DNA of 64,000 nucleotides from the NCBI RefSeq assembly GCF_900186535.1, contig NZ_FYDE01000003.1, positions 248,001-312,000 of the forward strand, written 5' to 3'. Positions 3,128 to 24,755 of this stretch are shown piece by piece. The translations under genes and the position numbers were made by a program. Below the pieces are notes generated by a model. It was not told the DNA's origin. It searched no databases and worked only from the letters and a program-made list of their open reading frames with translations. The first letter of the stretch is position 1; every line of letters begins with the position of its first letter. Source of the stretch: Marasmitruncus massiliensis (GTDB taxonomy: Bacteria > Bacillota > Clostridia > Oscillospirales > Ruminococcaceae).

Positions 3128-3509
3128 ATATGTGCCACTCTTCTTTCTAATTTTAAAGATTTATTTTTATATATTATGATTTAATTATCGGAATGTACCT
3201 TGTTGTGCCTTTTTATCAGGAATTATTTATACAAAAAGAGAACGTCCTGTGAACAGTGCCTCAATCACTATTTCAATATATCATTTTCACTCGTTAAATT
3301 TTAGGTGCTAATTCTATAAAGAAAAAGAACATTAACAATACACAGAATTGTGATAACAGCCGATGAAATAAAGAGGGAAAACGATGTATAACTGTTTAAT
3401 ATATAACTCAGCGTAATTTTCTGAAAAAGATGCTTATCGAATCATCTGGATAAAAAATTAAATAACCAACCTAGGCTGTTGCTTTACAAAACAAGTTGTG
3501 ATAATATTG

Positions 3510-3537
3510 TGATATAATTCGAATATCGTAATATTCG
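3510..3537 (+). promoter_or_regulatory. Extended -10 promoter overlapped by a palindromic operator for the MarR-fetAB operon
   Basis: An extended -10 element TGaTATAAT (3510-3518) is followed at once by the perfect inverted repeat CGAATAT-CGTA-ATATTCG (3520-3537). The transcription start would fall inside the palindrome. Size and AT-rich symmetry fit a MarR-dimer site, suggesting that the regulator encoded 26 bases downstream represses its own operon. The rest of the gap 3128-3563 is AT-rich and shows no gene. Confidence 0.65.
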
Positions 3538-3563
3538 TATATCGTATTTATGGGGGCAGGCAA

Positions 3564-3998: not shown

Positions 3999-4013
3999 GA
4001 AGGGTGAATTGTA

Positions 4014-5425: not shown

Positions 5426-5485
5426 GGATACGGCAATTCATAAATAATGTAAAACAGATCACTAAAACACTGAAACATATAGAAG

Positions 5486-5524
5486 AATGGGAAGCAGCGA
5501 GCTGAAACCTCGCTGCTTCCCATT
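5486..5524 (+). terminator. Strong stem-loop ending the marR-fetAB operon
   Basis: AATGGGAAGCAGCGAG pairs perfectly over 16 bp with CTCGCTGCTTCCCATT around a 7-base loop. No clear T run follows, so it may stop transcription weakly or stabilise the mRNA end. Confidence 0.55.
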
Positions 5525-5550
5525 ACATTGTAGCTTTAGCGTTAATCAAC

Positions 5551-6158
5551 CACCAGCTTTGCTGGTGAGAATAAAAATCTTTAGATGCAAGAAAACTTCT
5601 TTTTGCTAAACTAGATGCAGGTTGGCCAACCGCATAAAGGAGCAAAAGGAGGTTTTGTCGCATGAACGACATACAAAGTTTAGCACATTCTAATTGGAGA
5701 TGCCAGGATCATATTGTGTTCACGCCTAAATACCGCAGGAAAGAGATATATGGAAAGATTAAGGCGGACATAGGTCAGATACTGAGAAAGCTGTATGAAC
5801 AGAAAAAAGTAGAAATTATTGAGGCACAGGCATGCCCCGACCATATTCACATGCTAGTATGTATTCCACCAAACATAAGTGTCTCACAATTCGTGGGATA
5901 CCTCAAAGGTAAGAGCAGTTTAATGATATTCGATAGACATGCAAACTTAAAATATAAATATGGCAGCAGACACTTTTGCTGCAGAGGATACTATGTGGAT
6001 ACAGTAGGGCGTAATAAAACAGCAATTGCAGAATACATCAAAAATCAGTTAACGGGAGATATTGCGGCAGGCCCAATATTGCTCAAAGAGTATATGGACC
6101 CGTTTACGGGCAGCAAGAATACAAAGGCATAAAACAGGCCGCTTTAGCGGCGGCCTGT
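5551..6158 (+). mobile_element. IS200/IS605-family insertion sequence (transposase plus end hairpins)
   Basis: The element is delimited by subterminal hairpins: CACCAGC-TTT-GCTGGTG at 5551-5567 on the left and ACAGGCCGC...GGCCTGT at 6134-6158 on the right. Between them is a single Y1 transposase. IS200-type elements lack inverted terminal repeats and use such imperfect hairpins, so the exact ends, which lie some bases outside the hairpins, cannot be fixed here. No tnpB accessory gene is present. Confidence 0.75.
5662..6132 (+). CDS. tnpA: IS200/IS605-family transposase TnpA (Y1 HUH)
   Basis: At 156 residues this is the full length of IS200-type TnpA. The start HSNWRCQDHIVFTPKYRRK is typical; the metal-binding HUH motif is in CPDHIHMLV and the catalytic tyrosine is in RGYYVDTVG, followed by IAEYIKNQ. 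The ATG has AGGAGG 9 bases upstream. The gene looks intact, so the element could still move by single-strand transposition. Confidence 0.93.
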   Translation: MNDIQSLAHSNWRCQDHIVFTPKYRRKEIYGKIKADIGQILRKLYEQKKVEIIEAQACPDHIHMLVCIPPNISVSQFVGYLKGKSSLMIFDRHANLKYKYGSRHFCCRGYYVDTVGRNKTAIAEYIKNQLTGDIAAGPILLKEYMDPFTGSKNTKA

Positions 6159-6303
6159 AAAAGGGCGACAGTCCTTTTTCTTTTTGCGGAAAACAAGTTA
6201 TATCACAGTCCTGTTCAGCCATACTGGGAAAAAAGAAGATGAACCGTATGGCAGTATCGCATAAATCTGTCATAGCCTTTGGACTTGTGACTGTACTCAC
6301 GCA

Positions 6304-6337
6304 ACAATACCGGACGTTTTGCCACGCCCGGTATTGT
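6304..6337. terminator. Inverted repeat downstream of the AraC-type gene
   Basis: ACAATACCGG and CCGGTATTGT pair perfectly over 10 bp with a 14-base loop. It lies between the transposon end and the 3' end of the minus-strand AraC-type gene. No T run follows on the minus strand, so its role as terminator is uncertain. Confidence 0.4.
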
Positions 6338-6385
6338 GTTCGGTTTTGCCCTACTATTGCGAAAGCGGATTATCTGCAAATAAAT

Positions 6386-7252
6386 TCATTTCTTCTTCCG
6401 AACCGGTGTCCAAACTTCGCTGTAAGCGTAATCCTTTTTATGCTCATCCATTTTTGAAAAGGAAAAAGCAGGGATGTTGATGACCTCATAATCAGAGACG
6501 GGCAGCCATTCGGAATAGACTCGTGCCATGGTATTTTGCAGGGTGGCGGGAAACGGCCCCTCATTCGGAAAAACTGCCCAGGTGCAGGCTTCTACCGGAA
6601 CTTTCACCAATTGGTCACTTACATCCTCTTTTGTAGTCAGCACGCCAATCAGATGGGTCAGCTCGCCTTCTTCTTTCAAGAATCCGGCGTCTGCTTCATA
6701 AGAGGCGTTGACGATCTGATGAGGTTCCATGTTTTGCAGCGCGTGCATTTCTTTTCTTTGTTCTTCTGTAATGCTCATTGCAAGCTCTACAATAGCATTG
6801 TTGACGCCCTCAAATTGCATGGGAACTCGCTTGCTTACACCAACCAGATAAAACGCCGATTTTTCTTCGATTCTACATTCCATCGTATTTCCTCCTTTGG
6901 TTGTGATGACAAATGAAAGTTTAGGGAAGGGCTTGCTGATTCTTTTTTTGACTACTTCCGAGGGCAAAAAGCAGCTCCATTTTTTGAATGCCCGGGCAAA
7001 GCCGTCCATTGATTGGTAGCCATATTTGTAAGCGATATCAGTGACTTTTTCTCCCAGCAGCAAATCCTTGTTGGCTTCTGACAATCTTCTGCTTTTTATA
7101 TACTCACTCAATGTCATTCCCGCAAGATAAAAGAATACCGTCCTAAAGTGATAATCTGAGATTCCGACATATTTAGAGATTTCTTCCAGAGTCAGTTCAT
7201 CGGTCAAATGCTCTTCAATATAGTCAATGGCGCGGTTTAGTTCCTGAAGCAT
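6386..7252 (-). CDS. AraC-family regulator with GyrI-like effector-binding domain
   Basis: The 288-residue protein starts with an AraC DNA-binding domain at the N terminus (residues ~1-105: LTLEEISKYVGISDYHF, then VTDIAYKYGYQSMDGFARAF). The rest, from METK-like residue ~122, is a GyrI/SOUL-fold ligand domain (YLVGVSKRVPMQF ... VPVEACTWAVFPNEGPF ... YSEVWTPV). This order is that of Rob/MarA-like sensors of drugs or small organic ligands. It is flanked by the transposon and a gene-poor gap, with no target operon beside it. The ATG follows AAGGGAGGG-type sequence. Confidence 0.9.
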   Translation of the reverse strand: MLQELNRAIDYIEEHLTDELTLEEISKYVGISDYHFRTVFFYLAGMTLSEYIKSRRLSEANKDLLLGEKVTDIAYKYGYQSMDGFARAFKKWSCFLPSEVVKKRISKPFPKLSFVITTKGGNTMECRIEEKSAFYLVGVSKRVPMQFEGVNNAIVELAMSITEEQRKEMHALQNMEPHQIVNASYEADAGFLKEEGELTHLIGVLTTKEDVSDQLVKVPVEACTWAVFPNEGPFPATLQNTMARVYSEWLPVSDYEVINIPAFSFSKMDEHKKDYAYSEVWTPVRKKK

Positions 7253-8763: not shown

Positions 8764-10950
8764 ATGATTAATCAAGTTTACTACGCTCATACCCTTAAGG
8801 GAGAAAGCGAGGAAAAGTGGCAAACTGCCAAGAAGCATGCAGAAAATGTCGCGGAACTTTTAAAGAAGTTTTCGATACCGTGGTGCACGGAGGAATACGC
8901 CGAAAATCTTGGGCTGTTGCATGATGTTGGCAAGTATCAGTCCGATTTTCAGCGCCGCCTACGAGGTGAAAAGGTTTCTGTGGAGCACTCGATATGCGGA
9001 GCTGCGCAGTGGATCGAAATGAAGTGGCCGGAGTCTGGCGCATATTGTATCGCCGGGCATCACAGCGGCTTGCCGGATGTGGGAAGTAAAACCGACTCGG
9101 CTGACGAGCCGACACTACTTGGGCGGATAAAGAGAGCGGCGCAACAGGACTTTTTCGCCTTCCAAAACGAACTTACATTAAAGAAAATCAATGTTTTCCC
9201 TGCGAAAGATGCTGTTTGCATGAGCGGCAACAGTAAAGATGACATCAAAAAGGAATATGCCTTTTGGACACGGATGATGTTTTCCTGCCTGACCGATGCC
9301 GATTACCTTGACACAGAAGCGTTTTGCAGCGACCGTAAAGAAAGAGGCGTGTATGCAGATTTAAAAATCTGCCGCGCTCTGATCGACAGGTATATGATGC
9401 AGTTTAAGGCGGACACGCCTGTCAAACGTGCACGAGACGCCCTGCGCCGTCAGGTCATGTCGCACGTGCGGGAAAAGGCCGACGTTTATCTCATTCATAT
9501 GCCTACAGGAAGCGGTAAGACACTTACCAGCATGCAGTTCGCACTCGAAAGAGCGGTCTTGTCGCGCAAAAAGCACATTATTTATGTGATCCCTTACACC
9601 AGCATTATTGAGCAAAACGCAAAAATTTTCAAGAGTATTTTCGGCGCCGACGCTGTTTTGGAGCATCACTGCAACTTTGATTATGAGTCGGTGAAAGATG
9701 CCGGAACGCGCGAAAGGCTACAGCGGACGTCGGAAAACTGGGACGCTTCGATCATCGTGACCACCAACGTACAGTTTTTTGAATCGATTTACGGCAACCG
9801 CAGCAGCGAGCTGCGCAAGCTGCACAACATAGCCAACAGTGTCATTGTCTTCGACGAGGTGCATATGTTCCCCCGCCTGTTTTTTCAGCCGTGTCTTGAA
9901 GCTGTCAGGATTCTGACACAGCGGTATCATTGCGAGGCCGTTTTTATGTCGGCTACCATGCCTGATTTTCACAAATGGATGAGAGAATTCGGCTGCGGCA
10001 GTGTCAAAGCAGTCGATCTGATAGCGGACAAAAGCGATTTTCCTATATTTGAACGCTGTAAAATCGAGAATCTGGGGCAGCTGTCGCCGGAAAAGTTGGC
10101 AAGCCTTGCGGCAGAAGCGGGGAACGCGCTGATCGTGGTCAATTTGCGCAAGACCGCACGGCAGATTTACAAGCTTCTGCCGGACAAAAAATATCATTTA
10201 TCTACCTACATGACACATGAAGACCGCAGCGCAGTCATCGCCGAGGTCAAAGAATCGCTGGAAAGACACGAACGGTTTTGCCTTGTCTCAACGTCGCTCA
10301 TTGAAGCCGGCGTCGATCTGGACTTTGACCTCGTTTTCCGCGAGACTGCGGGGCTCGACAACTTGCTCCAAACTGCCGGCCGCTGCAACCGCGAAGGTAA
10401 AAAGCAGAACTGCAGGACATGCACCTTTGAGTTCGAAGAAAAAGAGCTGCAACCCCAAAATGATGAATTCACGATCAAAAAGCAATACTGCCTAGAGGCA
10501 CTTGAAAAATATGAGAACGTGGCGTCTCCCGAGGCAGTCGCACTCTATTTCGACCGGCTTTACTCTTATACGCTCCCGGATATGGAGTCGATGGATTTTA
10601 AGAGAGCGCTTTCCGCCGCATCCTGCGGCATAGACGGCTTTGGTTTTGATTTTGCCCGTTATGCCGCGGATTTCCGTCTGATTGACGACCACACGCAGCC
10701 GCTTGCTATTGTCACCGAAGAAAACAGAAAGATTGTCCGGCCGTTGCTAGACGCGGCCGCCTGCGGCGGAATGGCTCCTATGCGGAAGCTCCAGAAATAT
10801 ACAATTGCTCTGCGCCCGGCGGATTTTGCCCAGCTGTATCAGGCGGGTGTCGTCTGCGATGCCAACGGGCTGTACTATCTGGACTGTGAACGGTATTACA
10901 ATAGGGAAACCGGTATTTGTTTTGAAAACAATGATGCTTGTTATTGGTGA
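8764..10950 (+). CDS. cas3: CRISPR-associated helicase/nuclease Cas3 (type I-C)
   Basis: Cas3 is recruited by Cascade to unwind and degrade target DNA. In its 728 residues the N-terminal HD nuclease shows LLHDVGK (His53-Asp54), VEHS and IAGHHSG. The SF2 helicase has Walker A HMPTGSGKT (~246-253), DEVH (~364-367), MSAT (~395) and the motif VI segment QTAGRCNREG (~535-545), followed by a short C-terminal domain. All key residues look intact. The ATG follows AAAGGGA. It is the first gene of the cas operon, 36 bases before cas5c. Confidence 0.97.
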   Translation: MINQVYYAHTLKGESEEKWQTAKKHAENVAELLKKFSIPWCTEEYAENLGLLHDVGKYQSDFQRRLRGEKVSVEHSICGAAQWIEMKWPESGAYCIAGHHSGLPDVGSKTDSADEPTLLGRIKRAAQQDFFAFQNELTLKKINVFPAKDAVCMSGNSKDDIKKEYAFWTRMMFSCLTDADYLDTEAFCSDRKERGVYADLKICRALIDRYMMQFKADTPVKRARDALRRQVMSHVREKADVYLIHMPTGSGKTLTSMQFALERAVLSRKKHIIYVIPYTSIIEQNAKIFKSIFGADAVLEHHCNFDYESVKDAGTRERLQRTSENWDASIIVTTNVQFFESIYGNRSSELRKLHNIANSVIVFDEVHMFPRLFFQPCLEAVRILTQRYHCEAVFMSATMPDFHKWMREFGCGSVKAVDLIADKSDFPIFERCKIENLGQLSPEKLASLAAEAGNALIVVNLRKTARQIYKLLPDKKYHLSTYMTHEDRSAVIAEVKESLERHERFCLVSTSLIEAGVDLDFDLVFRETAGLDNLLQTAGRCNREGKKQNCRTCTFEFEEKELQPQNDEFTIKKQYCLEALEKYENVASPEAVALYFDRLYSYTLPDMESMDFKRALSAASCGIDGFGFDFARYAADFRLIDDHTQPLAIVTEENRKIVRPLLDAAACGGMAPMRKLQKYTIALRPADFAQLYQAGVVCDANGLYYLDCERYYNRETGICFENNDACYW

Positions 10951-10986
10951 AATTGTTTTAAATAATAAAAACCGAGGAGGGGTTCA

Positions 10987-11664
10987 ATGGGCTACGGAAT
11001 CAAAATTCTTATCGAAGGCGACTATGCTCTGTTCAGCAGGCCGGAGATGAAAGTCGAGCGCGTATCCTACGATGTGCCGACCCCGAGTGCTTTGGCGGGG
11101 CTTCTGTCCAGCATCTACTGGCACCCGGGCGTCAGGTACCTCATAGACCGGATTCATGTGCTCGAGCCGATACGTTTTGTCAACATCAGACGAAATGAGG
11201 TCAGTGAAAAACTGCTCCTTTCCGCTGTAAAAAAGCAGATGGACGGTTCAAAAGGCGACGTCGGCATTTATACGAAGGAGTGCATCAGCCAACGAGCGAG
11301 TCTGCTGCTGAAGGATGTCCGTTACGGTGTCGAAGCGCATTTTGAACTGACCGACGAAAAGGATGCCGGGACGACCCCTGAGAAGTGCTACAACATTCTG
11401 TTGCGCCGGTTGCGCAAAGGGCAGCATTTTACTCAGCCGTGCCTTGGCTGCCGGGAATTTTCCGCACGGGTTACGCTAGCCGAACAGATCCCTCAAAGCC
11501 CGTTGGCAGGCGACGTCGATCTCGGGTATATGCTGTATGATCTGCAATACAAAAAGAATGCGGCCGGTAAAAGTCTGGACTCCGCCGAACCGCGTTTTTA
11601 CCGGCCGCACATGGTAGACGGAGTGATCGACGTGGCGAAGTACGCCGAGGATGTGTTATGTTAA
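10987..11664 (+). CDS. cas5c: Type I-C Cascade subunit and crRNA endonuclease Cas5c (Cas5d)
   Basis: Type I-C systems lack Cas6, and Cas5c both cuts the pre-crRNA and caps the 5' handle. This 225-residue protein opens with GDYALFSRPEMKVERVSYDV and a PTPSALAGLLSSIYWHP segment, the Cas5 RRM signature, and carries ECISQRASLLLKDVRYGVEA typical of the Cas5d family. AGGAGG precedes the ATG. It overlaps the start of cas8c by 7 bases. Confidence 0.95.
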   Translation: MGYGIKILIEGDYALFSRPEMKVERVSYDVPTPSALAGLLSSIYWHPGVRYLIDRIHVLEPIRFVNIRRNEVSEKLLLSAVKKQMDGSKGDVGIYTKECISQRASLLLKDVRYGVEAHFELTDEKDAGTTPEKCYNILLRRLRKGQHFTQPCLGCREFSARVTLAEQIPQSPLAGDVDLGYMLYDLQYKKNAAGKSLDSAEPRFYRPHMVDGVIDVAKYAEDVLC

Positions 11665-13502
11665 GGGCTTTGAGTGCGTACTACGACTGCCTGTGCCGGC
11701 AAAAGGACAGCGGCCTTGTGCCGGACGGTTACAGCAGGCTCGGCGTGAATTACAATCTTGTGCTGAACGCCGACGGATCAATTCAGACAATTTTACCGTA
11801 TGTCAATACGGTCAACAACGGAAAAAAGATGAATGAGATCCCGCGGGACGAGCTTTTCCCGTTTCGGAATTCTGTTCCGGGAATTGCGGCCGAGACTGTC
11901 GATCACCGTGAAAAGTACCTTTTTGGCATCGAGTGGAACAAGCAGGGCAATACGCTCATGGTAACGAAAAACTCACTGTTTGCATTTGTAAAATGCAAAG
12001 AAAAGAATCTTGCATTTCTCGGCGGATTAAGCACTCCGGTCATCGATGCATATAAAAGCTTCCTGCGGTGCTGGAATCCGGAGAACGAACTTGACAATCC
12101 GTTCCTTGTGGATTTGGGCAAGCGATATGGCGGTGCAAAATTCGTTATCACATCAAGTGAAGATGCCGCCGCGCACAGCCCGCTCAACCGAGATCCGCTT
12201 GTCAGGGAAAAATGGAAGAACAGTCTGCGCAGCAAGCCAATTCCGGACGATGCAGTAATGGGACAATGCAGCATAAGCGGTCAATACGGTCCGATCGCCC
12301 GCATCCACGATAATCTCGCCGGCATACCGGGTGGCCTTGCCACCGGCGTGAACATCGTTTGCTTAAAATCGCCGGCCTTCTGGTCCTATGGCCGCAGGGA
12401 ATCCTATAACAGCTCGGTTTCGCAAAGGATTATGGAGAAATACACAAGGACTTTCAATTACCTGTCGTCTGTATCGAATCACAAGCAGGTACTGGATGAC
12501 ATGACGCTTCTCTGGTGGGCGATGACAAAGGAATCGGAAAAGCCGTATATGCAGGCGTTCAACGCCGGGATGGGATTTTTTTATCTGCAGGATGATGACC
12601 CCGAGGAGGCAAAGCGCGGTGAGCGTGAAACGAGCGATAAGGCGCTCGCCTCGATTTTCCGCCAGCTTGCGCAGGGCAAGCTGGCCGATTGGAAAGGCTT
12701 CGGCGTTGATCAAAGTACGGAATTTTATCTTCTCGGCGTCAAGCCCAACAGCAGCCGTCTGGCTGTCAAGCTGTTCGAGCACAACTCTTTCGAAAAAATA
12801 ATGATGAGTATCGAAAAGCATCACGCGGATATGCAACTTTCACCGGAAGACAAACAGATACCGATATGGCTGCTCGTCAAAGCGTTGAAATCGCCTGTTG
12901 TTTCAAGGGACGCTTTGCCGCCTAATCTTTCGGCGAAAATACTGCAGAGCATCCTCAAGGACGCTCCGTATCCCCGGTATATGCTTGATACGGTGGTGCG
13001 ACGGGCAAAGACAGATCAGGATGACGCAAGTAAAAAGTTTTATGCAGTCAGCCGTGACCGGATCAGGATTATCAAGGCATGTCTTACACGTATGAATATT
13101 ATAAAAAGAGGCGAGTTGAATATGTTGAACACGCAGAATCAGAACGGCGCGTACAATTGCGGCAGGCTTTTCGCCGTCTTGGAAATGATCCAGCAAAAGG
13201 CGCTTCCAGGTATCAACGCGACGATCAAAGACAAGTTCTTTTCCTCTGCCTGCAGTACGCCGTATCTTGTTTTCCCCCGTTTAATGAAACTTTCTCAGAG
13301 CCACCTCAAAAAGCTGGACAGGGGCGGCGAAATATTCTATGAGAAATACATTCAAGAGATTTTAAGCAATCTCGGCGATTCTTTTCCAAAGGCCCTGAGC
13401 ATGGAAAAACAGGGCATGTTTATTCTCGGTTATTATCAGCAAAAAGAAAAGTTCTTTGAAAAGAAAAATGAAGGAGAGAAAGATAATGGAACTGAAGAAT
13501 AG
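11658..13502 (+). CDS. cas8c: Type I-C Cascade large subunit Cas8c (Csd1)
   Basis: Cas8c is the large Cascade subunit that reads the PAM. The 614-residue length is normal for Csd1. The conserved central block, GQYGPIARIHDNLAGIPGG followed by FWSYGRRESYNSSVS, is present (residues ~200-260), as is a helical C-terminal domain (~400-600). The 3' end overlaps cas7c by 17 bases, indicating coupled translation. Confidence 0.95.
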   Translation: MLRALSAYYDCLCRQKDSGLVPDGYSRLGVNYNLVLNADGSIQTILPYVNTVNNGKKMNEIPRDELFPFRNSVPGIAAETVDHREKYLFGIEWNKQGNTLMVTKNSLFAFVKCKEKNLAFLGGLSTPVIDAYKSFLRCWNPENELDNPFLVDLGKRYGGAKFVITSSEDAAAHSPLNRDPLVREKWKNSLRSKPIPDDAVMGQCSISGQYGPIARIHDNLAGIPGGLATGVNIVCLKSPAFWSYGRRESYNSSVSQRIMEKYTRTFNYLSSVSNHKQVLDDMTLLWWAMTKESEKPYMQAFNAGMGFFYLQDDDPEEAKRGERETSDKALASIFRQLAQGKLADWKGFGVDQSTEFYLLGVKPNSSRLAVKLFEHNSFEKIMMSIEKHHADMQLSPEDKQIPIWLLVKALKSPVVSRDALPPNLSAKILQSILKDAPYPRYMLDTVVRRAKTDQDDASKKFYAVSRDRIRIIKACLTRMNIIKRGELNMLNTQNQNGAYNCGRLFAVLEMIQQKALPGINATIKDKFFSSACSTPYLVFPRLMKLSQSHLKKLDRGGEIFYEKYIQEILSNLGDSFPKALSMEKQGMFILGYYQQKEKFFEKKNEGEKDNGTEE

Positions 13503-14343
13503 GCATGAATTCGTCATGCTTTTTGATGTGGAGAACGGCAACCCAAACGGCGACCCCGACGCGGGCAATATGCCTCGTGTCGATGCTGAAACAAGCATCG
13601 GTATCGTGACCGACGTCTGCCTCAAGCGTAAAATCCGAAACTATATTGAGGCCACGCGGGAAGAAAAACCAGGTTACAATATTCTAATTAAAAACGACCG
13701 GGCGCTTAACACAAAATTTACCGAGGCGTATGAAACCTGCAATCTTAAAACAAAGCAAAAGGGTAAGGAGCAGAGTGCAGTTGCACAGGCGCGGGATTAC
13801 ATATGTAAAAACTACTTTGACGTGCGTACATTCGGAGCTGTTATGAGCACCGGAGACGATCCGTGCGGAATCGTCCGCGGCCCCGTCCAGATCAATTTTG
13901 CCCACAGCATCGACCCCGTATTGCCGCAGGAGATCACCATCACCCGTCAGGCGTTGACTACAGAATCGGAAAAAGCCGAAAAAGAAAACACGATGGGTAA
14001 AAAGAGCTTTATTCCCTATGGGCTCTACCGCGCGGAAGGATATGTTTCGGCGCTGCTCGCCAACAAAACCGGCTTCAGCGAGGAGGATCTCGAGCTTCTT
14101 TGGAAGAGTATGATCAACATGTTTGAAATAGACCACAGTGCCGCGAGAGGCAAGCTGTGCATGCGTAAGCTGTTTGTTTTTAAGCACGATTCGGCACTCG
14201 GCAACGCGCCGTCACATCTGCTATTTGACAAAATAACCGTCGCCAAAAACGCTGATGTGGACGTTGTGCGCAAATTCGGTGATTACACCGTTACAATTGA
14301 TAAAAACATGCCTGAAGGGGTAGCGTATATTGAAAAGCTCTGA
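13486..14343 (+). CDS. cas7c: Type I-C Cascade backbone subunit Cas7c (Csd2)
   Basis: Cas7c forms the helical backbone that coats the crRNA spacer. The 285-residue protein has the Csd2 N terminus FVMLFDVENGNPNGDPDAGN and the segment DVRTFGAVMSTGDDPCGIVR. I start it at the ATG at 13486 (GAAGGAG site), not the in-frame ATG at 13456, because MELKNRHEF matches the family start. It overlaps cas8c at the start and cas4 at the end (14 bases). Confidence 0.95.
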   Translation: MELKNRHEFVMLFDVENGNPNGDPDAGNMPRVDAETSIGIVTDVCLKRKIRNYIEATREEKPGYNILIKNDRALNTKFTEAYETCNLKTKQKGKEQSAVAQARDYICKNYFDVRTFGAVMSTGDDPCGIVRGPVQINFAHSIDPVLPQEITITRQALTTESEKAEKENTMGKKSFIPYGLYRAEGYVSALLANKTGFSEEDLELLWKSMINMFEIDHSAARGKLCMRKLFVFKHDSALGNAPSHLLFDKITVAKNADVDVVRKFGDYTVTIDKNMPEGVAYIEKL

Positions 14344-15007
14344 CGCCCTGACGGATATCCGGTCAGTACAGCAGTACCTTTATTGCCCGCACCGGTGGGG
14401 TCTGATGGAAACCGATTGCAGTTGGGCAGAAAACGTATTTGTCTGCAAAGGCAATCTGGTGCATGAAAATGTTGACACTGGGAAGTGTCTCTTTGCACGC
14501 AATGCAATCGTCGAGCGGTCGGTCAGGGTATACAACGACGACTGGGGCCTTTTTGGCGTCGTTGACTGCCTTGAGCTTCGCCGCGCTGCGGCGGGATGTT
14601 TAATAGAGAAATACGGCGGTCGCTTTGAGTTGGCAATCGTCGAATACAAGGTACGCTCTCCTAAAAGCGGTGATTTCCGCTACGAGGACGGTATGCAGTT
14701 GCTTGCACAGAAAATCTGCGTGGATGCCATTTTCAAAACTGACTGCGAGACCTTCTTCTATTACGCAAATATTCGCAAAAGAGTGAAGGCTGAATTTCAC
14801 AAGGAAGATTATTCATTTCTGAGAGCAACTCTTGCTGAAATGAATGAGCTGTGTAAGGCTTCCATCATTCCGCCGGTAAGAAAAGGGCAGTATTGCGGCG
14901 GATGTTCTTTGAAGGATATCTGTATGCCGAAAGGAGAGAAAAACCGTAATGCGAAAGCTGCTGAACACACTGTATATCACCCGTCCGGAGGCGTATCTCA
15001 GTCTTGA
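14330..15007 (+). CDS. cas4: CRISPR adaptation exonuclease Cas4
   Basis: Cas4 trims prespacers and selects PAM-bearing ends together with Cas1-Cas2. The 225-residue protein has the first iron-sulphur cysteine in QQYLYCPHRW, the RecB-like nuclease motifs VVDCLEL and IVEYKVRSPK, and the C-terminal cysteine cluster YCGGCSLKDIC. The start is TTG at 14330 with GAAGGGG upstream, inside the end of cas7c. It overlaps cas1 by 59 bases, an unusually long overlap, which leaves a tail past the cysteine cluster of ~25 residues that may be dispensable. Confidence 0.93.
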   Translation: MKSSDALTDIRSVQQYLYCPHRWGLMETDCSWAENVFVCKGNLVHENVDTGKCLFARNAIVERSVRVYNDDWGLFGVVDCLELRRAAAGCLIEKYGGRFELAIVEYKVRSPKSGDFRYEDGMQLLAQKICVDAIFKTDCETFFYYANIRKRVKAEFHKEDYSFLRATLAEMNELCKASIIPPVRKGQYCGGCSLKDICMPKGEKNRNAKAAEHTVYHPSGGVSQS

Positions 15008-15977
15008 CGGCGAAAACGTGGCCATGCTTCTGGACGGGAAAGAGGCCGCGCGCTTGCCATTATCAAATATCGAAAGCATCATCTGCATGAATTATCCTGG
15101 TTGCAGTCCGGCTCTGATGGGTAAATGTGCTGAGGAGCAAATCGGGCTGTGTTTTGTGTCGCCCGGCGGCAGATTTCTTGCGAGAGTAACCGGCCCTATA
15201 AAGGGCAACGTCTTTCTGCGAAAACAGCAAATGGAATTGTTCTCCGACCCGGAAAAGCGGACAGCGCTTATACGAAATCTGATAACCGCAAAGTTGAAAA
15301 ATACGCGCAGCCTGCTCATGCGTTCACGTCGCGATTACCCGATGACAGATGAGAACGGTGAGTTATCCCGCTGCATTGACATGCTTGAATACAATCAAAA
15401 GAAGCTGCTTGAGGAAAAGGATGAAAATACTTTACGAGGCATCGAAGGCCAGAGCGCCAAAGAATACTTCAATGTGTTTGATTTGCTGTTTACCCAGCAG
15501 AAAGAAGATTTCGCACTTTTGAGAAGGACAAAACGGCCGCCGCTTGACCTTACAAACGCGATGCTGTCATTTCTGTATACGATATGTACCAACGATATTG
15601 CATCCGCCCTGGAATGCGTCGGCTTAGACCCGTATATTGGCCTGTTTCATACACTGCGCCCCGGGAGAGCTTCTCTCGCATGTGATATCATGGAGGAGTT
15701 TCGTGCGCTGGTCGAACGTCTGGTGATCACTATGGTGAATCTGAAAATGGTGCAGAAGAGCGATTTCGAAAAGCAGATCAGCGGAGCAGTGTGGCTGAAT
15801 GACGACGGCCGGAAAAAGGTGATTACAGCCTGGCAGGACAAAAAGAACGAATGTATCAGCCATCCGTTCATAAAAGAAAAAATGCCGATAGGCCTCTTCC
15901 CCTATGTACAAGCAAATCTGTTGGCGAAATATATCAGGAGTGAAATAGAAGCCTATCCTAACCTGATTTGGGGGTAG
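14949..15977 (+). CDS. cas1: CRISPR-associated integrase Cas1 (type I-C)
   Basis: Cas1 is the integrase that inserts spacers at the leader end. The 342 residues begin RKLLNTLYITRPEAYLSLDG. The C-terminal metal site includes the glutamate in EYNQKKLLEEKDENTLRGIE, the histidine in YIGLFHTLRPGRASLACDIME and the adjacent acidic pair. GAAAGGAGAG precedes the ATG. cas2 follows after 3 bases. Confidence 0.96.
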   Translation: MRKLLNTLYITRPEAYLSLDGENVAMLLDGKEAARLPLSNIESIICMNYPGCSPALMGKCAEEQIGLCFVSPGGRFLARVTGPIKGNVFLRKQQMELFSDPEKRTALIRNLITAKLKNTRSLLMRSRRDYPMTDENGELSRCIDMLEYNQKKLLEEKDENTLRGIEGQSAKEYFNVFDLLFTQQKEDFALLRRTKRPPLDLTNAMLSFLYTICTNDIASALECVGLDPYIGLFHTLRPGRASLACDIMEEFRALVERLVITMVNLKMVQKSDFEKQISGAVWLNDDGRKKVITAWQDKKNECISHPFIKEKMPIGLFPYVQANLLAKYIRSEIEAYPNLIWG

Positions 15978-15980
15978 AAT

Positions 15981-16271
15981 ATGTTTGTAATTGTAGCCTA
16001 CGACGTAAATGTTACTTCTGAAAAAGGCAGGACCCGGCTTCGCAAGGTTGCAAAGGAATGTGTCAATTATGGCCAGCGGGTGCAGAATTCGGTGTTTGAG
16101 GTTAATTTGGATTACGGCAAATTTCTAAAGATGAAAGATCGTCTCATCAAATTAATTGACACCGACAAGGATAGTCTTCGCTTTTATTACTTGGGAGACA
16201 ACTGGAAAAGGCGCGTAGAGCATATCGGTGCAAAACCGGGATATGACAGTGAGGGAGTGTTGATTTTTTGA
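15981..16271 (+). CDS. cas2: CRISPR-associated protein Cas2
   Basis: The 96-residue protein has the ferredoxin-like Cas2 start MFVIVAYDVNV with the conserved aspartate, then RLRKVAKECVNYGQRVQNSVFE and a closing segment typical of type I Cas2. It forms the structural core of the Cas1-Cas2 integration complex. It ends 149 bases before the first repeat, the gap being the leader. Confidence 0.96.
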   Translation: MFVIVAYDVNVTSEKGRTRLRKVAKECVNYGQRVQNSVFEVNLDYGKFLKMKDRLIKLIDTDKDSLRFYYLGDNWKRRVEHIGAKPGYDSEGVLIF

Positions 16272-16419
16272 ATGCGAACGTGCGGTGACAGCGAAAATGC
16301 TGTCTGGTTCGCGCGGCTAATCTGGCTTGTAAACAGAAAAAGTATCTTATTATTGTTTCCTTTTTGCTTTATTGTCCACTTCATATACAGGGTGCGGTGT
16401 TATATACACAATATATAGG
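16272..16419 (+). promoter_or_regulatory. CRISPR leader
   Basis: The 148-base AT-rich gap between cas2 and the first repeat includes T-rich tracts and an inverted pair ACAGCGAAAATGCTGT. Its position and composition mark it as the leader that carries the array promoter and the integration site. The side next to cas2 fits the usual type I-C arrangement, so newest spacers should be at the low-coordinate end. Confidence 0.75.
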
Positions 16420-19400
16420 GTCGCACCTCGCATGAGGTGCGTGGATTGAAATGTTTTGCCACTGACTGCGCCACATCATCAACACGTCGCACCTCGCATG
16501 AGGTGCGTGGATTGAAATGAACGATGAGAGCACCATGCTTGCCAAACTGATAGTCGCACCTCGCATGAGGTGCGTGGATTGAAATTCCGGTTAGGGGCGT
16601 CAGAGGGCGCAAGGTTAAACGTCGCACCTCGCATGAGGTGCGTGGATTGAAATATCGCACCTATCAGGATTGGGAGTGTGGAAAACGGTCGCACCTCGCA
16701 TGAGGTGCGTGGATTGAAATTAGTGGGGATATTGTCAGGCGCAGCGGATATTACGTCGCACCTCGCATGAGGTGCGTGGATTGAAATCGCTGTTATATCC
16801 GCCTATGCCGTAGGCGACCACGTCGCACCTCGCATGAGGTGCGTGGATTGAAATTTTCAGGGTGGCGTTTTCGGCTTGCATTGCGCTGGTCGCACCTCGC
16901 ATGAGGTGCGTGGATTGAAATTGACGACGCCTTGAAAAACTCTATTTGTTTTGGGTGTCGCACCTCGCATGAGGTGCGTGGATTGAAATAATTTAGTGAA
17001 TGTCAATAAGGGTAATATGTTTAGTCGCACCTCGCATGAGGTGCGTGGATTGAAATTGTTTAAATCTGATTTAATTTCAAGAAATTCTTCGTCGCACCTC
17101 GCATGAGGTGCGTGGATTGAAATTTCCATAATTCAAACCAAGTCATTTTTATCCTTGTCGCACCTCGCATGAGGTGCGTGGATTGAAATCGCTTGAAACC
17201 CAAGCCCCGCAGGAGTCAGACCCGTCGCACCTCGCATGAGGTGCGTGGATTGAAATGCTGGTACTGTTGCGCCCGCGCTGACGTGTTTTGTCGCACCTCG
17301 CATGAGGTGCGTGGATTGAAATTACTCTAGCCACACTGGAAAGTATAGGCTATACCGTCGCACCTCGCATGAGGTGCGTGGATTGAAATTGTACTGTACG
17401 ACGGCAAGATTGTCCGTCCGAAAGTCGCACCTCGCATGAGGTGCGTGGATTGAAATGTGTCAGATATGTTTGACAATCGGAAAATTAAGGTCGCACCTCG
17501 CATGAGGTGCGTGGATTGAAATCTTAAAATATATTTCTTATCTCTTCTTTTGTGTGGTCGCACCTCGCATGAGGTGCGTGGATTGAAATCGTTTGCAAGC
17601 CTGTATACATACAGCAATAGCGAGTCGCACCTCGCATGAGGTGCGTGGATTGAAATCGTTTGCAAGCCTGTATACATACAGCAATAGCGAGTCGCACCTC
17701 GCATGAGGTGCGTGGATTGAAATGTTCTAAGATTTTCGAGTATGCGCTTTGCAATCAGTCGCACCTCGCATGAGGTGCGTGGATTGAAATGATTATATCA
17801 AAGACAATGAAGCCTGTGCAAAGTAGTCGCACCTCGCATGAGGTGCGTGGATTGAAATTCGTATTCCGTGAAGGTTTTCAGCGACAAGCCAGGTCGCACC
17901 TCGCATGAGGTGCGTGGATTGAAATTTAATATCCGGTATCTGGCGCGGCTTTCGTTTACGTCGCACCTCGCATGAGGTGCGTGGATTGAAATATGAATTC
18001 TTGACAGAAAACAGTAAAGGATTTAATGTCGCACCTCGCATGAGGTGCGTGGATTGAAATCTTTGTTGCTGCTAAAGGCTCCGGGGACGTTTTCGTCGCA
18101 CCTCGCATGAGGTGCGTGGATTGAAATTTTTGGGTATTTGTACGTTTATGTTTGGCATGTTGTCGCACCTCGCATGAGGTGCGTGGATTGAAATAGTCAA
18201 GCCATCGGGTAAGAGGAGGTGTATCAAGTCGCACCTCGCATGAGGTGCGTGGATTGAAATAATGATGCGCTTTCGGAATCGATCAGAACTAACCGTCGCA
18301 CCTCGCATGAGGTGCGTGGATTGAAATCTGTATCTCAACTTCGATTTCCCTGTTTTCGGTAGTCGCACCTCGCATGAGGTGCGTGGATTGAAATATTGGA
18401 CATGGATAAAATCAGCAGAATGTTACACGTCGCACCTCGCATGAGGTGCGTGGATTGAAATATCTTAAGAACACCGAACCGGTTCGAAAATTTAAGTCGC
18501 ACCTCGCATGAGGTGCGTGGATTGAAATGTTTCCGACAGCAAAACAGCAACCGGCTCCCGGACGTCGCACCTCGCATGAGGTGCGTGGATTGAAATTATC
18601 TTTAGCAATGTCAAATAAAAAGGACGTACTGTCGCACCTCGCATGAGGTGCGTGGATTGAAATGTCCGTTCCGGCCAACATCAATGATTTCATCGGGTCG
18701 CACCTCGCATGAGGTGCGTGGATTGAAATATTAAGGGGCTTATGCCAATCGTCAAAGAATTGGCGTCGCACCTCGCATGAGGTGCGTGGATTGAAATCAC
18801 AGGCTGTTTGGGCAGCTAAAAAGTACAGGTGTCGCACCTCGCATGAGGTGCGTGGATTGAAATTGATCGGCTTGTCGGTTCCCGCCCACTGGTTTAGTCG
18901 CACCTCGCATGAGGTGCGTGGATTGAAATAAATTTGTGAATATCAATTAAGTCCTGTTGTGGTCGCACCTCGCATGAGGTGCGTGGATTGAAATTTCTTC
19001 CAATTATACAGGCTATTACTCCTGAGATGTCGCACCTCGCATGAGGTGCGTGGATTGAAATCGCGCGGACGCAAACACGCTGACTTCCGATGTGGGGTCG
19101 CACCTCGCATGAGGTGCGTGGATTGAAATTTCTGAACAAGTAAGACTGCGATGAAAGTTTTCATAGTCGCACCTCGCATGAGGTGCGTGGATTGAAATAG
19201 TCCGATTCCGCTGCATATCCAGCTTACACCAAGTCGCACCTCGCATGAGGTGCGTGGATTGAAATCCTAAAACGTCTGCAGTCGGCGCCTGCGGGCGTGT
19301 CGCACCTCGCATGAGGTGCGTGGATTGAAATTTCAAGCCCGCGCTGCGTGAGCTGAGCATAATATGTCGCACCTCGCATGAGGTGCGTGGATTGAAATGT

Positions 19401-19512
19401 ATCCGGCATTGTTTCCAACGCCAGCTTGGAGGTCGCACCTCGCATGAGGTGCGTGGATTGAAATAAGACCTAACGCCTCGCTGCGCCGAAGCCCAGTGGT
19501 CGTACCTCGCAT
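16420..19512 (+). CRISPR. Type I-C CRISPR array: 46 full repeats, 46 spacers, truncated terminal repeat
   Basis: The repeat is 33 bp, starting GTCGCACCTC and ending GTGGATTGAAAT, with an 8-bp stem CGCACCTC/GAGGTGCG around GCAT. I count 46 full copies, the first at 16420-16452 and the last at 19432-19464, with no internal variants seen by eye. Spacers are 32-36 bp, mostly 34. Two neighbouring spacers are identical (17590-17623 and 17657-17690). After the 46th spacer (19465-19498) only 14 bases of a 47th repeat remain (19499-19512, one mismatch). The sequence then passes straight into a transporter lipoprotein gene. Confidence 0.98.
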
Positions 19513-20846
19513 TGGCGGTATGTCTCGCAGCCACCATGGCATTTTCAACGGTCGGCTGTGATTCCGCAAATGCGGAAAGCTCTTCGGAAAGCGGTTCTGC
19601 AAGCTTGGCAGATTCGAGTTCCGGCGACGGAGAACCTGTAACACTCAAAATCACTTGGTGGGGTTCACAGAGTAGACACGACTATACTCAGAAGCTTCTA
19701 GACCTTTATACAGAAACACATCCCAATATAAAGTTTGAAGCGTCGCCTGCCGGTTGGGATGGATATTTTGACAAACTGTCAACGCAGACGGCTTCGGGCT
19801 CTATGCCGGACATTGTACAGATGGACTATTTGTACATTACAACTTACGCACAAAATAATTCTATCGCGGATTTAAAGCCGTTTATCAACGATGGAACGCT
19901 CGATGTTTCAAGCGTTGGCGCGAACATTTTGAATACCGGTGAAATCAACGGAAAAATGGCTGGTATGGTTTTGACAACCTCTCTGCTTGCATTCGGATAC
20001 AATCCGGATGTTCTTACAAAAGCGGGTGTCAATATGCCGACAAGCGAATGGACTTGGGATGACTATATCTCGATGAACAAAACCATAAAAGAAAAAGCGG
20101 GTATTGCGGACAGCGCCAGCATAGATCCTCTGTATGACACCAATCTTTTCAATTATTGGGTAAGGCAGCACGGCGAGAAGCTTTTCAGCGATGATAATAA
20201 GTCCTTAGGATATCAGGATGATAAACTCTGTGCGGACTACCTGAAGATGTGGAAAGACCTGATGGATACCGATATTGTGCCCAATCCCGATGAGTTTGCG
20301 CAGATTCAGACCTTGGGTCTGGAAGCTGGCCCTGTCGTTACCGGAGATGCTGCCTTTGTTCAGAACTGGAACAATTATGCGACTCTCGTAGCAAAGTCGA
20401 ACGATAAAATCAAGATCGTCACGCCCCCGATGGCCACTGATTCCGATGCAAAAGGCCTGTGGCTGAAACCAGGTATGTTTTTCTCTGTAGCCGAGACTTC
20501 GGAACACAAAAAAGAAGCAGCCGAATTCATTAACTGGTTTGTTAATTCGGAAGAAGCCAACGATATCATCATGGCGGAAAGAGGCACACCTGTATCATCC
20601 AAAATTCGCGAGCATATGGTCAGTTCCGGAAAAATGACACAACAGCAGAAAGATATGTTCCAGTATGTTAACGAAGCGGCAAAACTTTGCGGCGAGACTC
20701 CACCTCCAGATCCGATTGGTATGTCTGAGGTAAATAAAGTGTTCAAGGATGTGGGTTCAAGCGTGTTTTATGGCCAGGCAACGCCGGAAGAGGCGGCGGC
20801 CAGCTTTAGGGAACAGACAAACGCAATGCTGGCAAGAAGCAACTGA
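19512..20846 (+). CDS. Sugar ABC transporter substrate-binding lipoprotein (family 1), 5' end lost to the CRISPR array
   Basis: The body is a complete family 1 solute-binding protein (LKITWWGSQ, then MPDIVQMDYLYI, then TPVSSKIREHMV), about 445 residues. It follows a lipobox FSTVGC and an S/E-rich linker. The only possible start is TTG at 19512, in the stub of the last CRISPR repeat. There is no ribosome site, and the next in-frame stop upstream is at 19464. The predicted leader AVCLAATMAFSTVGC has no positive n-region. The gene has most likely lost its promoter, start and first few codons. It heads an operon with two permeases and a GH115-like enzyme, so the ligand is probably a glucuronic-acid-bearing xylo-oligosaccharide (inference). 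Confidence 0.8.
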   Translation: MAVCLAATMAFSTVGCDSANAESSSESGSASLADSSSGDGEPVTLKITWWGSQSRHDYTQKLLDLYTETHPNIKFEASPAGWDGYFDKLSTQTASGSMPDIVQMDYLYITTYAQNNSIADLKPFINDGTLDVSSVGANILNTGEINGKMAGMVLTTSLLAFGYNPDVLTKAGVNMPTSEWTWDDYISMNKTIKEKAGIADSASIDPLYDTNLFNYWVRQHGEKLFSDDNKSLGYQDDKLCADYLKMWKDLMDTDIVPNPDEFAQIQTLGLEAGPVVTGDAAFVQNWNNYATLVAKSNDKIKIVTPPMATDSDAKGLWLKPGMFFSVAETSEHKKEAAEFINWFVNSEEANDIIMAERGTPVSSKIREHMVSSGKMTQQQKDMFQYVNEAAKLCGETPPPDPIGMSEVNKVFKDVGSSVFYGQATPEEAAASFREQTNAMLARSN

Positions 20847-20859
20847 TTGGTGGAAAAAA

Positions 20860-20895
20860 GGGGTTCCACAGAAAGATGTGGGACCCCTCTTTTTT
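20860..20895 (+). terminator. Intra-operon terminator/attenuator after the binding-protein gene
   Basis: GGGGTTCCACA pairs with TGTGGGACCCC (one mismatch) around a 6-base loop and is followed by a 7-base T run. Between a binding-protein gene and its permeases such an element usually keeps the binding protein more abundant. It also rules out the in-frame ATG at 20876 as the permease start. Confidence 0.85.
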
Positions 20896-20914
20896 GAAAG
20901 ATGCAGGTGATTAT

Positions 20915-21832
20915 ATGAAAGGCCATAAGAATTTGATTGGAAAACTTTATAAGCCGAGAGATAATGTGGTAGGCTATTTGATGCTTGCGCCGTGGCTGAT
21001 TGGCTTTCTTTTTATGTGGCTCGCTCCGGCTGTGACTTCTATGTACTATTCGTTTACAGACTTTAATCTTCTGAATACGCCGAAACTGATCGGTTTCGAT
21101 AATTATATTCGCATATTTACGACAGACAAGACCTTTATTCAGGCACTTAAGGTCACTTTTATTTATGTGCTGGTACTAGTGCCGCTTCGCTTGGCGTTTG
21201 CCCTGTTTATCGCGGTTCTTCTGAATAAGAAGCATAGATGCCTCGGCCTGTATCGCACGTTCTATTACATCCCGTCCATTATTGGTGGAAGCATTGCGGT
21301 TTCAGTTGTCTGGAAACAGATTTTTGGCAACAAGGGCGTCATTATGTCGCTGCTGGAGGTCTTTGGAATTCATCAGCAGACTTCCCTTTTGGGAAATCCA
21401 AAAACGGCGTTAAGCGTTATTATCATCATGGGTATATGGCAGTTTGGCTCGTCTATGCTAATTTTCCTTTCTGCATTGAAACAAATTCCGGGTTCGCTCT
21501 ATGAATCTGCTATGGTGGACGGAGCAAAGCCGGCAAAAATTTTCTTTAGGATTACGATGCCCATGCTGACGCCGATGATCTTCTTTAATCTGATTTTGCA
21601 AATTATCAATGGCTTCCGGGTATTTACGGAAAGCTATATTATTACGAACGGCGGGCCACTCGATAGCACGCTGTCCTACGTGTTATACCTGTATCGCCGA
21701 GCGTTTACCTATTTTGATATGGGGTACAGCTGCGCGATGGCATGGATTCTGGTTGCAATTATTGCCGTCTTTACAGTAATATTGTTCAAAACCCAAAAGA
21801 GCTGGGTCTACTATGAGTCGGGAGAGAATTAG
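20915..21832 (+). CDS. Sugar ABC transporter permease (MalF/UgpA-like)
   Basis: A 306-residue inner-membrane protein with six hydrophobic segments. The EAA loop that docks the ATPase reads SLYESAMVDGAKPAKIFFRI. I use the ATG at 20915, which has an AGGTGA site. No ATPase gene is present in the cluster, which is normal for Firmicutes sugar transporters that share an MsmK-like ATPase. The next permease begins 3 bases after the stop. Confidence 0.93.
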   Translation: MKGHKNLIGKLYKPRDNVVGYLMLAPWLIGFLFMWLAPAVTSMYYSFTDFNLLNTPKLIGFDNYIRIFTTDKTFIQALKVTFIYVLVLVPLRLAFALFIAVLLNKKHRCLGLYRTFYYIPSIIGGSIAVSVVWKQIFGNKGVIMSLLEVFGIHQQTSLLGNPKTALSVIIIMGIWQFGSSMLIFLSALKQIPGSLYESAMVDGAKPAKIFFRITMPMLTPMIFFNLILQIINGFRVFTESYIITNGGPLDSTLSYVLYLYRRAFTYFDMGYSCAMAWILVAIIAVFTVILFKTQKSWVYYESGEN

Positions 21833-21835: not shown

Positions 21836-22687
21836 ATGGGTATAAAAAAAGAAAAAAGACTGCGTTCCATCCTATTTCATGTCGGGGCATGTATTCTGGG
21901 ATTTATCATGATCTATCCGCTGCTCTGGCTCGTTGCAAGTTCCTTCAAAAGCAATGAAACAATGTTTACGAACACCTATTCACTGATTCCAACGGAATGG
22001 GACATTATTGAAAATTACAGTAGTGGACTTAAGGGAGTCGGCGGTGTCACGTTCCTAACATTCTTTCTGAATTCGCTGATTGTCACCTTTGTGGGCACCG
22101 TTACCTGTGTAATGTCATCTCTTTTCGCGGCATATGCCTTATCTAGAATCCGGTTCCGCTTTTCCGGTTTTTGGTTTGGCTGCGTCATGGTTACTATGAT
22201 GATACCGCCTCAAGTTATGGTTGTACCACAATATATTATTTTGAAAAAGATGAAATTGATCGACACTGTAGCGTCGCTGGTGCTGCCGTGGGGGTTTGGT
22301 ACGGCATTTTTTATCTTTCTGATGATCCAGTTTTTTAAAGGGATCCCGAAAGAGTTGGATGAAGCGGCACAGATCGATGGCTGTGGAAAGATCGGCATCC
22401 TGTTCCGTATTCTGGTCCCGATTGTAAAGCCTGCGATTGTGACGTCGTCAATCTTTGCATTTTATTGGATCTGGCAGGACTTCTTTCAGCCACTAATTTT
22501 CATGAATACAACCAGCAAGTTTACAATTCCTTTAGCCCTGAACATGTATCTGGATCCCAATTCCTACAACAACTATGGGGGACTGTTTGCCATGTCTGTG
22601 ATTTCGCTGCTCCCGGTTATCATTTTCTTCATTATCTTCCAGAAACAGCTGGTAGAGGGGATTGCAACGGAGGGGCTCAAAGGCTGA
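21836..22687 (+). CDS. Sugar ABC transporter permease (MalG/UgpE-like)
   Basis: The 283-residue partner permease has about six membrane segments and the EAA loop KELDEAAQIDGCGKIGILFR. It is tightly packed behind the first permease and ends 58 bases before the GH115-like gene. Together with the binding protein it would form the import channel. Confidence 0.93.
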   Translation: MGIKKEKRLRSILFHVGACILGFIMIYPLLWLVASSFKSNETMFTNTYSLIPTEWDIIENYSSGLKGVGGVTFLTFFLNSLIVTFVGTVTCVMSSLFAAYALSRIRFRFSGFWFGCVMVTMMIPPQVMVVPQYIILKKMKLIDTVASLVLPWGFGTAFFIFLMIQFFKGIPKELDEAAQIDGCGKIGILFRILVPIVKPAIVTSSIFAFYWIWQDFFQPLIFMNTTSKFTIPLALNMYLDPNSYNNYGGLFAMSVISLLPVIIFFIIFQKQLVEGIATEGLKG

Positions 22688-22745: not shown

Positions 22746-24755
22746 ATGTTGTTGATTAATAAAAATTCGGTGATTACTGTAACAATGGATTCGGAATCTG
22801 TCAGAAGAGCCGTGAGGAGCCTCAGGCGGGATATCGACAAAGCCTTTTGTGATTCCGATACAACAGGGGCGGAAATACGTCTGACAGAAGATCATAAGCA
22901 GAAGACAGAATGTTTCCAAATTGTGGCGATTGACGAATATCTGGAAATCCGGGCGATGGATGCTCTCGGTTTTATTTATGGCATCTATGAAATCAGTCGT
23001 TCCCTGCTTGGTATCACAGACTTCTGGTTCTGGAATGACCAGAAGATAGTGCCGAAGGTGGGCATTCGCATCCCCGACGATTACCAGTACCAGTCCATGC
23101 CGTATATAGTGCAATTCCGCGGCTGGTTTGTCAACGACGAGGTGTTACTCCATACCTGGAGCGTAGACAGGCAGAAAGCAAAACCATGGGAAATGACGTT
23201 TGAAGCACTGCTTCGCTGCGGCGGCAACATGGTTATTCCCGGTACGGATACCAACTCACGGCTTTACCGAAAACTGGCATCGGATATGGGGCTGTATATT
23301 ACCCATCACCATGCGGAGCCGCTTGGCGCGGAGATGTTTGCCCGGGCATATCCACAGCTGAATCCTTCCTACGCGGAATATCCAGACAAATTTCGGCAGC
23401 TTTGGCTGGATGGTATCCGAGAGCAGAAGGAGATGCGTGTCGTCTGGAACCTTGGTTTCCGCGGCCAGGGGGACTGCCCCTTCTGGATTAACGATTCGCG
23501 GTACCGGACGCCAGAATCCCGTGGTAGGTTAATGAGTAGGCTGATCCAAATTCAGTACGAAATAGTAAATCAGATGGTGCCTGGCGCGGTCTGCTGCACG
23601 AATCTATATGGAGAAACGATGGAACTTTACCGGGATGGTTACCTAAAGTTGCCGGAGGACATTATCAAGATCTGGGCGGACAACGGTTACGGAAAGATGG
23701 TGACGAGAAGGCAGGAAAATCATAATCCGCGCATTTACGCCTTACCACAGGAAGGAGACAAAGGGAAGCACGGCATTTATTATCACGTTTCTTTTTATGA
23801 CCTACAGGCGGCAAACCACATCACAATGCTCCCGAACTCCCCAGAATTTGTGCTTGGAGAGCTTGGAAAAGTGTTGAAGCATGGTGTAAGGGACTTCTGG
23901 CTGATCAACTGTTCCAATATCAAACCGCATGTATATTTCCTGGACTTTATCTCCAAAGTCTGGCGGGAGGGAACGGTTAATCCTACGAAACACAGGGAGG
24001 AATACATATCGCGATATTATGGAACGCATAACGTTGGGAAAATTTCCGCTTGCCTGAAAGCTTATCCGGAATATGCGCTTGCATATGGGAACGAAGAGGA
24101 CGAACATGCTGGGGAGCAGTTCGCCAATCATGTGGCGCGGATTCTGATTTCACAATTTATGAGGGACAAAGAGAAACGCGCGGAGGACCTACTATGGGCG
24201 ACGAGGGCAAAGAATCTGAAAGAACAAGTCCTCTGGTATCAAGCGCTGTGCGATAAGGCGCGAAAGGGATACCTGGAGTACCAAAGAGAGTGTGAGCGGA
24301 CGGCAGATTCTATTTCGGATGATGCACGGGGACTATTCCGGGATTCACTGCTTTTGCAGGTGGAGATCTATTCTCATTGCTTTTCTGGAGCTTATCTGGT
24401 GTGCGAAAGCCTGCTGAAGGCCATGGATGGTGATGAACAGAGGGCATTTTATGCGGCTGGCAAAGCAAAGGAAGAATATTGCAGCGCAAATCAAGCTATG
24501 CGGGACTGTGAACATGGTGAATGGTGCGGCTTTTACGCAAACGAATGCCTGACAGATGTCAAACAGACAGCCTGGGTTCTGGAAGGATTAATGAGCTACC
24601 TGAGAAATTTAGGTGATGGACCTCATTTTTACAAGTGGCAAAGAGAATTTCTGTATCCCGAGGAGGACCGCCGGGTGCTGCTGATTCTCAACATGGAAAA
24701 CCATTTGAAAGATGACGAACTGTTTACGCTGATGGAGGCAAGATGGGATAGTTAA
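22746..24755 (+). CDS. GH115-family alpha-glucuronidase-like glycoside hydrolase (intracellular)
   Basis: GH115 enzymes remove (4-O-methyl)-glucuronic acid from xylan. This 669-residue protein shows family landmarks: the start of the barrel RGWFVNDEVLLHTW, WEMTFEALLRCGGNMVIPG, then LPEDIIKIWADNGYGKMVTR and KGKHGIYYHVSFYD. An N-terminal hydrolase-accessory domain with FIYGIYEISR precedes them. There is no signal peptide, so it should act on imported oligosaccharides, fitting the transporter genes directly upstream. It is shorter than characterised GH115 enzymes (~800-1000 residues) and lacks their C-terminal domain. AGGGAGGG precedes the ATG. Confidence 0.8.
   Translation: MLLINKNSVITVTMDSESVRRAVRSLRRDIDKAFCDSDTTGAEIRLTEDHKQKTECFQIVAIDEYLEIRAMDALGFIYGIYEISRSLLGITDFWFWNDQKIVPKVGIRIPDDYQYQSMPYIVQFRGWFVNDEVLLHTWSVDRQKAKPWEMTFEALLRCGGNMVIPGTDTNSRLYRKLASDMGLYITHHHAEPLGAEMFARAYPQLNPSYAEYPDKFRQLWLDGIREQKEMRVVWNLGFRGQGDCPFWINDSRYRTPESRGRLMSRLIQIQYEIVNQMVPGAVCCTNLYGETMELYRDGYLKLPEDIIKIWADNGYGKMVTRRQENHNPRIYALPQEGDKGKHGIYYHVSFYDLQAANHITMLPNSPEFVLGELGKVLKHGVRDFWLINCSNIKPHVYFLDFISKVWREGTVNPTKHREEYISRYYGTHNVGKISACLKAYPEYALAYGNEEDEHAGEQFANHVARILISQFMRDKEKRAEDLLWATRAKNLKEQVLWYQALCDKARKGYLEYQRECERTADSISDDARGLFRDSLLLQVEIYSHCFSGAYLVCESLLKAMDGDEQRAFYAAGKAKEEYCSANQAMRDCEHGEWCGFYANECLTDVKQTAWVLEGLMSYLRNLGDGPHFYKWQREFLYPEEDRRVLLILNMENHLKDDELFTLMEARWDS

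Follow-up and report, generated by a model that had tools for sequence, protein, structure and literature searches.

A type I-C CRISPR array joined to the codons of a 5'-truncated sugar-binding lipoprotein gene in Marasmitruncus massiliensis

Damage to the terminal repeat of a CRISPR array has been described before. The available part of PMC8047081 reports that 3' substitutions or truncations are frequent in terminal repeats, and that of PMC4466440 gives a degenerate terminal repeat in 126 of the 126 Streptococcus agalactiae strains studied. For type I-C systems, the accessible text of PMC5965380 leads to the expectation that Cas5 cuts every repeat hairpin of the pre-crRNA and gives a crRNA handle of 11 nt. 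Another class of system close to the one studied here is the two-component-regulated operon found at loci L009, L010, L055 and others, in which a gene for a sugar-binding protein is followed by permease genes and, in L009, also by a GH115 gene. The locus described here touches both. In line with the available parts of PMC8047081 and PMC4466440, the 3' end of the oldest repeat shows damage in this array and also in the second type I-C array of the same genome. The junction differs from the trailer ends presented there in that the repeat stub meets the codons of a start-less gene, which those parts do not describe. Likewise, none of the titles and abstract openings of the matching literature describes a fusion of an array with the coding sequence of a gene lacking its 5' end.

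The type I-C locus and the end of its array

The window, a stretch of 64,000 nt from the genome of M. massiliensis (positions 248,001 to 312,000 of contig NZ_FYDE01000003.1), contains a cas operon at 8764-16271 on the + strand with the gene order cas3, cas5c, cas8c, cas7, cas4, cas1, cas2. All seven proteins score above their NCBIfam cut-offs, among them Cas8c with 336.5 against 218.65 and Cas1c with 428.6 against 385. The occurrence of Cas3, Cas5c, Cas8c, Cas7 (Csd2), Cas4, Cas1c and Cas2 in a single operon, together with identical hairpin repeats adjoining cas2, places the system in type I-C. The stretch between cas2 and the first repeat (16272-16419, + strand) is assigned as the leader from its position only. 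It is followed by the array (16420-19464, + strand), in which 46 exact copies of a 33-nt repeat are separated by 45 spacers. The first full repeat starts at 16420 and the last one, in which folding predicts a hairpin, occupies 19432-19464. Behind the last full repeat, spacer 46 (19465-19498, + strand, 34 nt) forms the oldest end of the array, giving 46 spacers with lengths of 32-36 nt. Allowing at most one mismatch, the repeat is absent from all other genomes among the 297 of the family. In a search for an ancestral form of the cas locus, cas1 at E 1e-130 matched only its own genome among 398 genomes of the phylum, and the closest Cas1 among the fetched loci stands at 57%.

At the exact array period, the sequence GTCGTACCTCGCAT at 19499-19512 (+ strand) corresponds to repeat positions 1-14 with a single C>T change (13/14 identical). 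The stub has a partial-repeat score of 11, and a score of at least 8 was reached in none of 1450 shuffles of the downstream DNA. A reading made earlier from the sequence only had described the last repeat as cut after 14 bases. The 14-nt stub is present, but it represents an additional, 47th copy at the array terminus, and the final full repeat before it is intact. Directly 3' of the stub, the sequence continues as the coding sequence of a sugar-binding lipoprotein, entered at about codon 9. On the + strand, this frame is closed by the TAA at 19464-19466, whose first base is the last base of the final full repeat. Within the frame, the TTG at 19512 is the earliest start codon, and the next ATG lies at 19536. 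The sequence-only reading had the array running straight into the lipoprotein codons, with only this TTG left as a start and this TAA closing the frame, and all of that holds. A CTCGCAT stretch that it regarded as shared between repeat and codons, suggesting a deletion through short homology, is the stub itself read as codons.

Terminal repeats of other type I-C arrays

A search for Cas1c across 393 genomes of the class was positive in 54, and 53 stretches were fetched. With the two from this genome included, 55 arrays or stretches were examined, of which 13 had no usable consensus, 13 ended within 300 bases and 29 were readable at their ends; the 26 unread arrays represent a non-random loss, many of them lying on short stretches. 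By rule, a stub was present at 7 of the 29 readable ends and absent from 22. On inspection, one of the seven (L180) proved to be a complete repeat that carries an indel; without it, clear 3'-truncated terminal repeats remain at 6 of 29 ends. Two further cases, L146 (19 nt) and L182 (27 nt), are arguable; the rule counts them as degenerate full copies, and they belong to the 11 of the 22 arrays without a stub whose last copy carries at least three mismatches.

The second type I-C array of M. massiliensis, with 43 copies, lies with a second type I-C Cas1 at about 2570-6949 of locus L111 (G000:C1:153001-173000). It also ends in a stub, which a script measured as 9 nt; inspection by eye gives 12 nt, one of them mismatched (L111:6938-6949). 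From L111:12745 onward, the same locus carries a long run of 18-nt repeats with 138 overlapping copies in register. A congener's I-C-type array (L112, G005:C1:216001-235990, at 10375-17932) is arranged in three blocks with gaps of about 3.5 and 2.4 kb, and a run of N lies at the edge of one block.

Because terminal repeats that are truncated or degenerate occur commonly among the surveyed type I-C ends as well as in the published cases (PMC8047081 and PMC4466440, in their available parts), the truncation of the repeat alone is no evidence of a deletion, and the earlier reading is not supported where it takes the cut repeat by itself to indicate one. The cut repeat is ordinary; the unusual feature of this array is its neighbour gene. 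In a comparison of array ends covering the + strand frames, the frame that is open where the array ends is 443 codons long here, the longest among the 29 readable ends. The second longest, with 391 codons, belongs to L166, where an AAGGAGG resembling a ribosome site and a separate start follow downstream. At L151 (G601:C16:38862-43518, positions 2001-2520), the last full repeat of a type I-C array directly abuts a phage Gp15 gene that is without about 28 N-terminal profile positions, its open frame of 162 codons leading into profile positions 29-169 of 170. As at the junction studied here, the array continues into the codons of a gene without a start. Unlike it, L151 has a full last repeat, a phage gene as neighbour and a contig end 2.6 kb away, perhaps reflecting a misjoin. 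L151 may be either a genuine fusion or a misjoin through a spacer.

The operon behind the array and its relatives

The gene following the array (19512-20846, + strand) encodes a family-1 sugar-binding lipoprotein with the SBP_bac_1 domain (PF01547, 102.8 bits against a cut-off of 26). Loci with relatives numbered 67, 66 from a collection with one genome per species and one from a search of the family, of which 40 formed the comparison set, namely the reference L009 and those loci whose protein shares at least 49% identity with its protein. A start codon, a ribosome site and at least two K or R in the first 11 residues were found in 39 of the 40; at L042, the stretch stops inside the gene. The sequence-only reading had argued that the gene lost its start, ribosome site and positive n-region and had suggested a search for relatives with an intact 5' end. 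Every one of the 39 readable relatives has all three elements, in agreement with that view. In M. massiliensis, the TTG at 19512 aligns with codon 9 of L009, indicating that about eight codons are missing, and this TTG is all that stands in the place of a start with a ribosome site and a positive n-region. The lipobox position reads TVGC here, AAGC in L009 and LAGC in L055; we take the T at -3 of TVGC to deviate from the lipobox consensus.

No close relative was found for either half of the junction. With its own genome set aside, the binding protein finds at most 31% identity in the genus (11 genomes) and one strong match, at 57%, among the other members of the 297 family genomes. The best matches in the species collection are L019 (76%, partial) and L009 (71%). 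The genes upstream are missing as well. A sensor kinase and a regulator lie upstream on the same strand in 30 of the 34 loci having at least 4.4 kb of upstream sequence; at L030, L032, L043 and L065, both are elsewhere in the locus or otherwise oriented. In L009, the kinase is a His_kinase/HAMP protein, and the regulator is a response regulator that carries an AraC-type domain. Both are absent from the window, leaving the binding-protein gene without the kinase and AraC-type regulator that stand beside it in a two-component-regulated GH115 operon. Relocation of the pair to another place in the genome was considered and rejected, as no close copy was found and the best partial matches reach 38% (regulator) and 37% (kinase). 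Since the genome holds only these partial matches, the gene front was lost and not moved, barring an assembly gap. Short-period repeats were absent upstream of the relatives' genes at the four loci tested.

The rest of the operon follows the order of L009, with protein identities of 75-86%; unlike the L009-type operons, it is without kinase, regulator, promoter and first codons. A terminator-like hairpin (20859-20888, + strand; scan and fold) separates the binding-protein gene from the permease genes, and folding of 11 relatives predicts a hairpin at the matching place in all 11, a count made without a shuffle control. On the + strand, permease gene 1 (20915-21832, within a longer ORF from 20876; PF00528, 85% to L009) is followed by permease gene 2 (21836-22687, PF00528) and the gene of the GH115 glycoside hydrolase (22746-24755; PF15979, 214.1 bits). 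Both permeases are present in 35 and GH115 in 34 of the 40 relative loci. Permease 2 shows no departure at 123 invariant columns, where its 18 relatives show 0-13. Of 102 columns that are constant across the other 20 rows, the mature binding protein departs at 2, against 0-7 departures for those rows themselves, in an alignment in which at least one of the 21 rows carries a stop symbol. Against L009, dN/dS is about 0.08, a value that dates nothing because dS is saturated.

Origin of the junction and expression of the operon

We consider the junction to be probably the scar of an illegitimate rearrangement, either a deletion or a replacement, at the trailer end of the type I-C array. It is most likely an ordinary scar of this kind rather than a designed link between immunity and feeding. 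We infer that one breakpoint fell within the terminal repeat, or at the edge that an earlier truncation had left, that the other fell in the lipoprotein gene some eight codons from its start, and that the event would have removed the sensor kinase, the response regulator, the promoter, the ribosome site, the start codon and the positive n-region. Loss after the arrival of the operon and arrival in an already truncated state are indistinguishable because no sister strain shows the ancestral state. The mature protein has no visible decay, implying that the event was recent or that the protein is still used; this weighs somewhat against a scar, as a gene in use would look the same.

The rearrangement would be an artefact if the assembly had joined an array end and an operon that are not neighbours, with the intact gene front and the regulators lost in a gap. 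The assembly (3.76 Mb) does consist of five contigs with 2.2% contamination, and a possible spacer-mediated misjoin was met elsewhere, at L151. Against this stand a completeness of 99.97%, a position of the junction deep inside a 559-kb contig, and a genome in which a second copy of the gene front, the kinase or the regulator is nowhere to be found. In addition, the stub carries its own mutation and offers only 14 nt, which is little to misjoin on. A false join is unlikely.

We also weighed the idea that the gene is alive and yields a lipoprotein with a short signal from the TTG at 19512, driven by a nearby promoter that simple scans missed. Its open frame and undecayed protein agree with this, as does the centroid fold, in which the TTG is unpaired; in the minimum-energy fold, it is paired. 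The 20 nt before the TTG contain no visible purine-rich ribosome site, and the residues ahead of the hydrophobic stretch include neither K nor R. At the TTG, the duplex computed with the 16S tail (-8.2 kcal/mol) is weaker than at the real starts of five of five relatives (-8.8 to -12.6; L025 was excluded from this range, the position read there being no start codon). The value is not decisive because random places in the operon, with a median of -3.5, reach -9.4 at the 5th percentile. Simple scans of 19200-21000 found no sigma-70-like site on the + strand before 19831, which itself lies inside the gene, although promoter scans say little because the numbers of sites are near those of shuffles. 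On balance, expression in this manner is rather improbable.

In another scenario, transcription from the CRISPR leader would extend into the operon, and sugar uptake would be driven by the synthesis of pre-crRNA. The earlier statement that the operon is readable only via the leader or an internal promoter is fair in its logic, but the leader itself is without a + strand promoter-like site in the simple scan, which placed one inside the array, at 17450. Array and operon are on the same strand, and the scan of 16200-19520 detected no + strand terminator-like site, both compatible with read-through. Opposing it are the Cas5 cutting expected at each repeat hairpin (PMC5965380, available part) and the terminator-like hairpin after the first gene, and we regard this route as very doubtful. 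In its most elaborate form, the leader would have captured the operon. Cas5 would cut the read-through transcript at the last full repeat, near 19454 as deduced from the 11-nt handle in the available text of PMC5965380, and leave a natural crRNA-mRNA chimera that starts with the crRNA 5' handle and spacer 46 and runs on into the transporter mRNA; effector proteins loaded on the 5' end would gate translation, and uptake would follow the CRISPR state. This version is highly improbable.

If the junction is a rearrangement scar, translation of the binding protein would have to begin at a TTG that lacks a visible ribosome site, its signal peptide would be uncharged, and the protein would be made poorly or not at all. 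The intact permeases and GH115 enzyme would rely on a promoter that escaped recognition or on read-through. The array would still be usable for immunity, except that 3' processing at spacer 46 would lack a full downstream repeat. An old array end could thus become a rearrangement boundary that strips an adjacent operon of its promoter and regulators, and the locus would offer a natural setting in which to examine genes that lie behind an array, as well as a last crRNA that lacks a repeat downstream of it.

Self-targeting was examined as a cause and rejected. The 46 spacers, compared with the fetched loci above L008 and with the array-masked window, gave only chance-level matches of 13-22 nt, self matches in loci holding the same stretch aside. 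Spacer 46 (33/34 nt) returned seven phage records with a best E of about 1, none at 80% coverage, and the 24-mer of the junction had no match in viral contigs. Rfam at gathering thresholds gave no match in 16200-21100. An IS200-like transposase gene (PF01797) at 5662-6132 lies to the left of the cas operon, without a demonstrated link to the junction. Within the array, two identical neighbouring spacers at 17590-17690 constitute its sole duplicated spacer.
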